Assembly: GCA_902384525.1 (NCBI GenBank)
Contig: CABMCA010000124.1
Location: 1-62,447, forward strand
Origin: an uncultured archaeon
GTDB taxonomy: Archaea > Halobacteriota > Methanosarcinia > Methanosarcinales > Methanoperedenaceae
DNA length: 62,447 nt
Reading direction: 5' to 3'
Shown here: positions 30,036 through 33,028 of the stretch, in pieces
How positions within the stretch are numbered: position 1 is the stretch's first letter
Layout: each line of letters begins with the position of its first letter
Program-made: the position numbers and the translations under genes
The notes under the pieces: model-generated
Database searches by the model: none
What the model saw: the letters and a program-made list of their open reading frames with translations, nothing else
What the model was told of the DNA's origin: nothing

Positions 30036-30371
30036 ATGAGTAATAGTAAAACGGCATTAGGTATTGATGAAAATATAGAAGGTCTATTGTGTTATGTTCT
30101 GGGATTCATAACCGGAATATTATTTCTGGTTTTGGAAAAGGATAATAAATTTGTGAGATTCCATGCAATGCAATCAATAGCGACTTTTCTAATTATTTTT
30201 GTGATTTCAATGGTTATTGGATTTATTCCGGTCATCGGATGGTTGCTCTCTCCTTTAATTGGATTGGTGGCATTAATTCTCTGGTTATTATTGATGTTCA
30301 AGGCATACAAAGGAGAGAAATATAAACTGCCAATAGCAGGCGATTTTGCAGAACAGCAGGTCAGTAAATAA
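30036..30371 (+). CDS. UPF0132/DUF4870-like small membrane protein
   Basis: A 111-aa protein with three hydrophobic segments (about 14-33, 46-67 and 70-92). LEKDNKFVRFHAMQSIATF and the helix-breaking FIPVIGWLLSPLIGL match the UPF0132/DUF4870-type family. GGAGGA (30020-30025) precedes ATG 30036 by about ten bases. It stands alone with an AT-rich promoter region upstream (TTTATATTATAAATAAAATTA around 29961-29980). Function unknown. Confidence 0.8.
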   Translation: MSNSKTALGIDENIEGLLCYVLGFITGILFLVLEKDNKFVRFHAMQSIATFLIIFVISMVIGFIPVIGWLLSPLIGLVALILWLLLMFKAYKGEKYKLPIAGDFAEQQVSK

Positions 30372-30829: not shown

Positions 30830-30958
30830 ATGGAGCAAAACGATAATACATTTATCCAAATGGCTGGAATGACAAATCAGGCAGGTTGGAGAGTGGGGAT
30901 TTCATTTTTAATTAGCTTATGGTTTTTTTGGACATACTTTAAAAATTTACGCTGTTGA
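30830..30958 (+). CDS. Possible 42-aa membrane peptide
   Basis: An ORF with a polar start (EQNDNTFIQMAGMTNQAGW) and one hydrophobic helix (VGISFLISLWFFWTYF). TTATTTAT (30799-30806) about 24 bases before the ATG could be a TATA box for a leaderless transcript. There is no Shine-Dalgarno site. It could also be the 5' piece of a longer gene broken by a frameshift. The rest of the 30576-31000 gap shows no other ORF. Confidence 0.35.
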   Translation: MEQNDNTFIQMAGMTNQAGWRVGISFLISLWFFWTYFKNLRC

Positions 30959-31000
30959 AATCTTAAATTGTACTGCTCACTTAACCGATAGCTTAAAGTA

Positions 31001-31008
31001 CTTTATAG
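31001..31008 (+). promoter_or_regulatory. Putative TATA box of the L1-L10-L12 operon
   Basis: CTTTATAG lies 73 bases before the rpl1 start, which predicts transcription starting near 31027, just before the leader hairpin. The box sits between two AGTACT copies (30997-31002 and 31017-31022). Confidence 0.4.
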
Positions 31009-31020
31009 TAGAAAAGAGTA

Positions 31021-31066
31021 CTCCCCTATCATCCGTAGGAGACAATAGTCGAATAACTACGGGAGG
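31021..31066 (+). promoter_or_regulatory. Leader hairpin overlapping the rpl1 ribosome-binding site
   Basis: CCGTAG (31033-31038) pairs perfectly with CTACGG (31057-31062), and the 3' arm runs into the Shine-Dalgarno GGGAGG (31061-31066). In addition CTCCC (31021-31025) is complementary to GGGAG. Folding would hide the ribosome site of rpl1. L1 is known to repress its own operon by binding mRNA in bacteria and Methanococcus, so this is a candidate autoregulatory leader. Confidence 0.5.
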
Positions 31067-31073
31067 AATTATA

Positions 31074-31715
31074 TTGGAACATGAAAAAGTATTAGAAGCT
31101 GTCAAGCAGGCCCTGGAAAAGTCTCCAGAGCGAAAATTTACAGAAAGCGTTGATCTAGCTATCAACCTTAAAAATCTTGATATGAACCAGCCCACAAACA
31201 GGCTTGATGAAGAAATAATCCTGCCAAACGGCCTGGGAAGACCAATAAAGATCGCGGTATTTGCAAAAGGTGATACTGCCCAGAGGGCGAAAGCTGCTGG
31301 TGCAGATTATGTTTTTGATCCCGAAGAGATAAGTATTCTCGGAGAAGACAAAACACGAACAAAAAACCTGGCAGAAGAAGTGAATTTCTTCATAGCAGAA
31401 GCAGCATACATGCCTGTGATCGGTAAAACCCTTGGCCAGGTGCTTGGTCCCAGGGGGAAAATGCCTATACCATTGACTCCGGATAAGGATGTCGTTCAGG
31501 TAATAAACAAGTCCAAGAACTCAATAAAAGTAAGGTCCAAGGATAAGATGACTTTTCATATCTCAGTGGGTAAAAAAGATATGGACCCTGTGAAATTATC
31601 CCAGAACATCGAGGCGATAATCAACCGTATTGAGCACAGGTACGAACGTGGCATGTATAACGTCAAATCGATCTATGTCAAATCCACAATGGGACCGGCA
31701 ATAAAGGTGGTATAA
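31074..31715 (+). CDS. rpl1: Large-subunit ribosomal protein L1
   Basis: uL1 forms the mobile stalk at the ribosomal E site and can repress its own mRNA. The 213-aa protein shows FTESVDLAINLKNLDM, NRLDEEIILPNGLG, the RNA-binding GPRGKMPIPL (~124-133) and the C-terminal NVKSIYVKSTMGPAIKV. The start is TTG at 31074, supported by GGGAGG eight bases upstream; the length fits archaeal L1. First gene of the L1-L10-L12 operon, one base before rpl10. Confidence 0.97.
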   Translation: MEHEKVLEAVKQALEKSPERKFTESVDLAINLKNLDMNQPTNRLDEEIILPNGLGRPIKIAVFAKGDTAQRAKAAGADYVFDPEEISILGEDKTRTKNLAEEVNFFIAEAAYMPVIGKTLGQVLGPRGKMPIPLTPDKDVVQVINKSKNSIKVRSKDKMTFHISVGKKDMDPVKLSQNIEAIINRIEHRYERGMYNVKSIYVKSTMGPAIKVV

Positions 31716-31716
31716 A

Positions 31717-32637
31717 ATGTCAACTGAACTAGCACACCACAGTATTCATATCCCAAAATGGAAAAAAGATGAAATTGAGGATATAAAAAGACTTATAACG
31801 ACTCATTCTTCAGTCGGTATTGTAGGAGTTACAGGAATTCCATCTAACCAGCTTCAACTGATGAGAAAGAGCCTGCGCGGTATTGCAGATCTCAAGATGT
31901 GCAGGAATTCTCTTATTGACCGTGCGCTTGCTGAATCATCCGATGAAGTTAAGCAGATAAACAAATATGTTGAAGACCAGACAGCGTTATTATTTACTAA
32001 CGAGAATCCTTTCAAACTCTTTAAGATCCTGGAAAAAGGAAAAACCTCTGCACCAATGAAGGCAGGAGGCGTCGCTCCAAAGGACATAGTAGTCGAAAAA
32101 GGACCAACTTCTTTCCCACCCGGCCCGATAGTCGGAGAATTGACTGGAGCAGGAATCCCGGCAGGCATAGAAGGAGGAAAAGTCGTAATCCGCCAGACAA
32201 AGACCGTGGCTAAAAAAGGCGATGTTGTTGATGCAAAACTTGCATCTATCCTTTCACGCCTTGAAATACACCCCATGGAATTGGGACTTGACCTTCGTGC
32301 TGTTTATGAAAATGGCATGATCTATGAATCAAAGATCTTGTCGGTTGATGAGACCACTTATACAAATAATCTGACGTTGGCAGTCCAACATGCATTCAAT
32401 TTGTCAGTCAACTCAGCTTATCCGGCTAAAGCAACTATCAGCACACTGCTCACAAAGGCAGCATCGCAATCAAGGAATCTTGCAATAAATGCTGAAATCA
32501 TGATGCCGGAAATCATCGGTGTACTGCTTGGAAAAGCAAATGCGCAGATGATGTCTATTGCCAGATTGGCAATGGCAAAAGACGCTAACTCCGTCAGCAG
32601 CAAAATAAAGGAGAAGGTTGCAGCAGCACCCAAGTAA
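31717..32637 (+). CDS. rpl10: Large-subunit ribosomal protein L10 (P0)
   Basis: uL10/P0 anchors the L12/P1 dimers in the ribosomal stalk. The 306-aa protein starts with IPKWKKDEIEDIKRLI, has GIVGVTGIPSNQLQLMRKSLRG and MCRNSLIDRAL for rRNA binding, and an archaeal-type extension with the L12-binding helices toward the C-terminus (SRNLAINAEIMMPEIIGVLLGKANAQM). The acidic GLGALFG tail found on many archaeal P0 proteins is absent; this chain ends KIKEKVAAAPK, so it is shorter than P0 forms that share that tail with P1. Confidence 0.96.
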   Translation: MSTELAHHSIHIPKWKKDEIEDIKRLITTHSSVGIVGVTGIPSNQLQLMRKSLRGIADLKMCRNSLIDRALAESSDEVKQINKYVEDQTALLFTNENPFKLFKILEKGKTSAPMKAGGVAPKDIVVEKGPTSFPPGPIVGELTGAGIPAGIEGGKVVIRQTKTVAKKGDVVDAKLASILSRLEIHPMELGLDLRAVYENGMIYESKILSVDETTYTNNLTLAVQHAFNLSVNSAYPAKATISTLLTKAASQSRNLAINAEIMMPEIIGVLLGKANAQMMSIARLAMAKDANSVSSKIKEKVAAAPK

Positions 32638-32663
32638 AGAAAAAAGAAACAAGAAAAGATTTA

Positions 32664-32683
32664 TAACGGGCTTTGGCCCGTTA
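32664..32683 (+). promoter_or_regulatory. Hairpin between rpl10 and rpl12
   Basis: TAACGGGC and GCCCGTTA form a perfect 8-bp stem with a TTTG loop in the 76-base gap. No U-run follows directly. It could act as an RNA processing site or attenuator that lets rpl12, needed in several copies per ribosome, be expressed differently from rpl1-rpl10. Confidence 0.5.
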
Positions 32684-32713
32684 TTTGGTTAAATTCAATA
32701 AAAGGTGATTAAA

Positions 32714-33028
32714 ATGGAATACGTATATGCAGCGCTATTATTACACAGCGCAGGAAAGAAAGTAACTGAAGAAGGAATAACCGCTGTTATCAAAGCAGCA
32801 GGTGTTGATGTTGATGCAGTAAGGGCAAAAGCACTCGTTTCAGCCCTTGATGGGGTCAATATCGAAGAGGCCATTGCAAAGGCAGCATTTGCAGCTCCGG
32901 CAGCAGCAGCTCCAGCAGCAGCATCAGCGGCAGCCCCGGCAGCAGCTGAAGCTCCAAAGGCAGATGAAAAATCCAAAGAGAAAGCTGAAGAAAGCGGAAT
33001 GGAAGGCCTCGGCGCCTTGTTCGGTTAA
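32714..33028 (+). CDS. rpl12: Large-subunit ribosomal protein P1 (archaeal L12)
   Basis: The stalk protein that recruits translation factors. It has the dimerisation N-terminus [20 protein letters not shown], an Ala/Pro-rich hinge (~60-80) and the conserved C-terminal EGLGALFG that binds GTPase factors. The ATG at 32714 has GGTGAT upstream (32703-32708), making it a better start than the codon at 32705. Last gene of the operon. Confidence 0.97.

Follow-up and report, generated by a model that had tools for sequence, protein, structure and literature searches.

Control of ribosomal protein L1 (uL1) synthesis by mimicry of its rRNA binding site is an already known principle. In Methanococcus vannielii and its relatives, the L1 operon rpl1-rplP0-rpl12 is subject to translational autoregulation, and the L1 site lies inside the rpl1 coding region, ~30 nt past the start. 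In bacteria, the L1 site precedes rplK (L11) in the rpl11-rpl1 unit, while an L1-site-like structure is said to have been proposed by Shimmin and Dennis in 1989 in the Halobacterium L1e-L10e-L12e leader. As summarized in the accessible part of a review, uL1 autoregulation occurs in both Bacteria and Archaea, uL1 represses translation from the bacterial L11-L1 (rplKA) leader via an rRNA-like mRNA site, and uL1 sites on mRNA closely resemble that of 23S rRNA, the rRNA complex being the more stable (PMC10931766). Archaeal r-leaders have been described by comparative genomics for S15, eL15 and L4, those for S15 and eL15 being said to resemble rRNA sites, and L1 appears neither in Table 1 nor in the main text of that paper, as far as its accessible part extends (Eckert and Weinberg 2020, PMC7247131). 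Likewise, the accessible part of a Thermococcus start-site paper contains nothing on L1 feedback (PMC4247193). Our literature search returned no title on an L1 leader element in Methanosarcinales, which is weak evidence of absence since subscription papers were thinly covered.

The window considered here, i.e. the whole stretch of DNA that was analysed, consists of 62,447 nt from an uncultured archaeon of the Methanoperedenaceae (contig CABMCA010000124.1). Among named records, those nearest to it are METP1 (Methanosarcinales, 97% identity) and several of Candidatus Methanoperedens, which makes it probable that the DNA comes from a Methanoperedens (ANME-2d) archaeon. On its plus strand lie rpl1, encoding uL1 (31074–31715, TTG start, PF00687 with an E-value of 1.5e-55), rplP0, encoding uL10 (31717–32637, PF00466 and PF17777), and rpl12, encoding the acidic stalk protein (32714–33028, PF00428). 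The rpl1 stop codon and the rplP0 start are spaced by 1 nt. In the window, rpl11 is not adjacent to rpl1, which is directly preceded instead by a DUF4870 gene (30036–30371). Between rplP0 and rpl12 there is a perfect 9-bp hairpin, AUAACGGGC-UUUG-GCCCGUUAU (32663–32684, z -3.55), which is not clearly conserved, a crude check having found hairpins of at least 7 bp in 4 of 25 named loci, in differing places.

We propose, with a probability that we put at about 0.88, that positions 31033–31062 form a uL1 autoregulatory leader in the rpl1-rplP0-rpl12 mRNA, which would mimic 23S rRNA, bind L1 and thereby repress translation. This reading is built on a predicted fold, its conservation and covariation, its likeness to rRNA and its overlap with the Shine-Dalgarno sequence, all of which were established by computation. 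Methanococcus shares the operon and, probably, a 23S-like L1 site in the mRNA and translational feedback; however, the present site is situated wholly in the leader, where it overlaps the Shine-Dalgarno sequence and leaves 11 nt between its end, at 31062, and the TTG. The structure reportedly proposed in Halobacterium likewise resembles an L1 site and lies upstream of the L1 start codon. It belongs to another lineage, whereas the covarying two-helix fold described here was traced through 26 of 30 sampled families; haloarchaea-like families (a taxonomy inferred from sequence) carry the same fold. By comparison with the bacterial rplKA leader, the site precedes rpl1 itself, the window containing no rpl11-rpl1 unit. 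With the archaeal S15 and eL15 leaders (Eckert and Weinberg 2020), it has in common that an archaeal r-leader resembles an rRNA site.

The fold, on the plus strand, begins 41 nt upstream of the rpl1 start and stops 11 nt short of it, with a conserved promoter element upstream of the fold. Helix 1 pairs CCGUAG (31033–31038, defined by sequence, folding, covariation and RNAalifold) with CUACGG (31057–31062, defined by sequence, covariation and RNAalifold), while helix 2 pairs GAC (31041–31043) with GUC (31048–31050), both arms being defined by folding, covariation and RNAalifold. The internal loop is asymmetric, with GA on its 5' side (31039–31040), the A of which is also present in the 23S site, and GAAUAA on its 3' side (31051–31056). 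The initial annotation of this DNA had described a perfect CCGTAG/CTACGG stem, and this description is exact (6 bp); it mentioned neither helix 2 nor the asymmetric loop. It had also placed the stem against GGGAGG, which is right as to contact but understates it, since the last two G's of the stem are the first two of the Shine-Dalgarno sequence (GGGAGG, 31061–31066). The latter fits the 16S 3' end CACCTCCT of a same-genus genome (L121) and is followed by a 7-nt spacer and the TTG (31074–31076). In a tally of 163 distinct leaders, GGAGG was found within 8 nt, counted from the last two bases of the stem, in 130, overlapping the stem in 121 and abutting it in nine. The 30-nt hairpin, a segment picked by eye before the comparison with shuffles, has a predicted energy of -9.1 kcal/mol compared to -2.87 (sd 1.82) for shuffles, only 1 of 200 of which was as good, and three longer stretches, when folded, proved ordinary or at least less striking (z -0.42, -1.99 and -0.33). 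The real case against chance comes from comparative data.

Within the order, 113 places with rpl1 were found, and the comparison covered 110 of them, in five families, f1–f5 (loci of G014 and G059 and the second, weak match of G067 were left out). From elsewhere in the phylum it covered 122 of 125 matching genomes, in 25 families, f6–f30 (G168, G186 and G239, all f10, were left out). Of these 232 rpl1 upstream regions, 207 were recovered by a descriptor consisting of an outer helix closed by NUAG and CUAN strands, an N-A loop and an inner helix; they comprise all 110 from the order and 97 of the 122 from outside it. At least one locus carries the fold in 26 of the 30 families. When a 6-bp outer and an at least 3-bp inner helix were demanded, the 207 matches in the forward sequences compared to two in reversed and eight in reverse-complemented ones, and to a mean of 3.1 and a maximum of 7 in 100 shuffles. 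A first, strict pattern had captured 98 of the 110 order loci, the other 12 being a TAAG variant that was included later. Raw counts overstate independence because the sequences are related; there are 87 distinct core sequences among the 110 loci of the order and 163 among all loci. The last A of the 3' loop strand, just before CUAC, is found in 163 of 163 distinct leaders although the descriptor does not demand it; the A of the 5' strand is equally invariant (163/163), but it is required by the descriptor and its invariance is thus built in. The pattern GTAGNAGRYN{4,20}RYCN{4,20}ACTACG occurs once in the 2.92-Mb own genome, compared to six occurrences of a reversed control pattern. In a set of named loci that overlaps the unnamed one, the fold was found in 79 of 80, the exception (L359) having a related 5-bp stem in which U-A replaces C-G at pair 5. 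In L359, AGGAGG is partly free beside the shortened stem.

A comparison of leaders for compensatory changes had been proposed as a check in the initial annotation, which would have taken a lack of conserved pairing as refutation. Conserved pairing and compensatory changes were both found, with changes in both helices and a conserved position. The count relied on was obtained from alignment A5 (43 leaders, MAFFT, structure not used) instead of A3, which has one antisense row and a count leaning towards the model structure. Haloarchaea-like and long-insert leaders are left out of A5 because MAFFT misaligned their helix 2 (A4). In A5, 96.7% of cells are paired, compared to 90.2 in shuffles. Double changes are seen in 31 cells (shuffles 8.6), and covariation scores 0.287 (shuffles 0.176); none of 500 shuffles reached any of these three values. 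Double changes occur in helix 1 at pair 1 (C-G to U-A, four sequences) and pair 3 (G-C to A-U, 11), and in helix 2 at pair 2 (A-U to G-C, 10), pair 3 (C-G to U-A, two) and pair 4 (four sequences). There is no excess in the number of pairs with a double change (5 compared to 4.1 in shuffles, reached by 172 of 500) or in further pair types (9 compared to 10.6). Shifting the partner by 1–3 columns lowers paired cells to 20–61% and double-change cells to 2–8. Three of the six helix-1 pairs are invariant in A5 and thus without covariation information, and RNAalifold on A5 returned the same two helices (9 pairs).

Model R1, made with 20 f1 leaders, draws on the own family and two sister genera only. 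With a cutoff of E 0.5, it matched 68 times in 90 loci and reached leaders of many other families; for 64 of these matches, the position agreed with the parsed site and the strand was sense, one was antisense at the same place and three were uncheckable since duplicates had been dropped. The covariance model R2 gave a single match in the own genome at E up to 5, namely the present site (E 2.7e-8). Across 147 genomes of the phylum, 89 had a match with a cutoff of E 0.05. The matches number 91, and 89 of them lie at most 200 nt upstream of, and on the same strand as, a Pfam match for rpl1, a number to be taken as a floor because the 58 match-free genomes include members of f5, f22 and f23, families in which the descriptor does find the fold, with long insertions or a short loop. 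The remaining R2 matches, in two genomes of a single genus, and a weaker one in a third genome are not near rpl1; they were considered as a second L1 target and rejected as chance; they lie in surface-protein-like coding sequence, the first in a surface-protein frame and the other two in near-identical sequence. Rfam 15 has no gathering match in the window and, over 30950–31150 at E up to 10, just one unrelated minus-strand match (E 5.7).

Upstream of the stem, a BRE/TATA-like promoter element, GATAGCTTAAAGTA (30987–31000, plus strand), is found at a near-fixed distance from it. An element of the GATA..TTAAAGTA type precedes the stem by 29–33 nt in 30 of 31 own-family loci, by 32–35 nt in all 16 f2 loci and by 26–27 nt in nine of 14 f3 loci; it was found in none of five f4 loci and in one of 44 f5 loci. 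In Methanolobus, according to the accessible part of the report, TATA/promoter elements and starts are 19–22 nt apart, and the leaders of ribosomal-protein mRNAs are long, averaging 165 nt (PMC5378194). Here, transcription is predicted to start at about 31019–31023, ~10 nt before the stem, and from the spacing of the promoter element a start downstream of 31038, which the initial annotation would have taken as refutation, appears unlikely. CTCCC (31021–31025, plus strand) sits at this predicted start and may be an initiator. The initial annotation noted that it can pair with the Shine-Dalgarno sequence. In an alternative reading, sequestration would chiefly be due to CTCCC-GGGAG pairing at the 5' end of the mRNA, L1 switching between the folds. 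The complementarity is present, and the 16 nt preceding the stem contain CTCC, TCCC or CCTC in 24 of 31 loci of the own family and in nine of 16 of f2; folding from 31020 rather than from 31030 lowers the predicted accessibility of the Shine-Dalgarno sequence, and the median shuffle p in f2 is 0.075. In the own family, however, this 16-nt segment is no more complementary than its shuffled versions (median p 0.45), and in f3 these letters occur in none of 14 loci (p 0.835). CTCCC was therefore not counted as part of a switch, and we regard this reading as improbable, though it fares best among the alternatives to the L1-binding leader.

The identity of the ligand is suggested by the 23S rRNA. 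The L1-stalk region of a same-genus genome (G074, L121), which we take to be the L1 site, reads GGUAGGAGGC ... GCCG ... GACACUACC, and its counterpart in the leader reads CCGUAGGAGAC ... GUCG ... AACUACGG. Two helices and an asymmetric internal loop, a trait of uL1 mRNA sites, are found in both. A weight matrix made from the 163 distinct leaders only, and covering GUAG-N-A plus three helix-2 bases on one strand and CUAC plus the base before it on the other, was run over both strands of 12 rRNA loci, each ~6 kb long. As the own assembly has no 23S match, these loci were taken from 11 other genomes, including one of the same genus. The L1-stalk site ranked first in 12 of 12 loci, with 24.1–25.1 of a possible 25.1 bits, the next-best score in any rRNA locus being 18.7 bits. 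The outer pairs differ, being GG/CC in rRNA and CC/GG in the leaders, which is expected if the 3' GG doubles as part of the Shine-Dalgarno sequence. Models R1 and R2 gave no match in the 12 rRNA loci at E up to 10, probably because of a long apical insertion and of GG/CC in place of CC/GG outer pairs, so the mimicry rests on the two-strand matrix.

These data also bear on two readings in which L1 plays no part as ligand. The stem overlaps the Shine-Dalgarno sequence and is about as weak (-9.1 kcal/mol) as an RNA thermosensor would be, and it might thus be such a thermosensor, or a general hairpin tuning translation, rather than a protein site. However, a thermosensor needs pairing and not fixed loop letters, whereas the A before CUAC is invariant; since the loop letters are fixed, this reading is disfavoured. 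It also has to face the match of the whole letter combination to the 23S L1 site and the position at rpl1 of nearly all R2 matches, and we hold it to be slightly less probable still than sequestration by CTCCC. That the leader binds another ribosomal protein of the operon or beyond it (the uL10/L12 complex or uL11), L1 being merely encoded first, is very improbable, for although uL10 and L12 are encoded downstream and an L10(L12)4 leader exists in Bacillus, according to the accessible part of one paper (PMC4538822), it is the 23S L1 site that the fold matches, top among all positions scored in the rRNA loci.

A uL1 autoregulatory leader, as had been suggested for the ribosome site of rpl1 from the letters of the window, is thus supported by the constancy of its position, by compensatory changes and by a sequence nearly identical to the L1 site of 23S rRNA. 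L1 binding, repression, coupling to rplP0 and the place of the transcript start are inferred, and the rpl1 product would probably be repressor and target at once. L1 in surplus over free rRNA sites would bind the leader copy and clamp the outer helix, the 3' GG of which provides the first Shine-Dalgarno bases, so that loading of 30S on rpl1 would be blocked. As the conserved stem pairs just the first two G's of the Shine-Dalgarno sequence, repression would depend on L1 both clamping the stem and masking the neighbouring remainder. Translation of rplP0 would fall along with that of rpl1, a coupling suggested by the 1-nt spacing. With plentiful rRNA, L1 would go to the ribosome, the weak 6-bp helix would open and rpl1 would be translated. 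The element is compact, sits at the Shine-Dalgarno sequence, has a clear rRNA counterpart and is detectable by a simple model (R2), which makes it a candidate for an Rfam entry and would offer a ready test of L1 feedback in uncultured methane oxidizers and in genetically tractable relatives.

It is likely that a single ancestral uL1 leader was retained across nearly all of an archaeal phylum, its outer helix fused with the Shine-Dalgarno sequence, hairpins being added to one side of the loop in several lineages and the leader being lost in a few. Among distinct leaders whose 3' loop strand measures at least 12 nt, those with a predicted hairpin (4 bp or more) in that strand number 14 of 15 in f2, 34 of 34 in f5, 2 of 2 in f20, 1 of 1 in f14 and 1 of 4 in f4, and leaders with such inserted hairpins still keep the A before CUAC. 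If a single ancestral leader was indeed kept in this way, it would be an unusually widespread and old ribosomal-protein leader, without a match among the Rfam 15 families. In seven f5 loci (L049, L051–L053, L055, L058 and L059), the element extends to 101–103 nt, its 3' loop strand bearing several hairpins (one example folded).

The fold is nevertheless dispensable, since it is missing from 25 of 232 loci, namely all fetched loci of f10 (17), f12 (3), f15 (2) and f27 (2) and one of f9. Losses would concern four sampled families, in three of which rpl1 is directly behind rpl11. This was checked in 20 fold-lacking loci (12 of f10, three of f12, two of f15, two of f27 and the diverged one of f9): rpl11 was recognized upstream in 14, i.e. 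10 of f10 and both of f15 and of f27, so that it lies just upstream of rpl1 in 14 of 16 f10/f15/f27 loci and in none of three f12 loci. A move of the L1 site to a place before rpl11 was considered and rejected, a loose scan having given weak, scattered matches that were unconvincing by eye, and no convincing fold was seen before rpl1 or rpl11 in these 14 rpl11-positive loci. One of the weak matches lies just before rpl11 in G147 and another inside the rpl11 frame of G236, the latter being absent from the other f27 genome. The stretch upstream of rpl1 in several fold-bearing families also resembles, by eye, the end of rpl11. Finally, in two f10 genomes (L276 and L282), complementary segments discerned by eye before rpl11, GGTCT..AGACC and GTATC..GATAC, could be a different regulatory structure.
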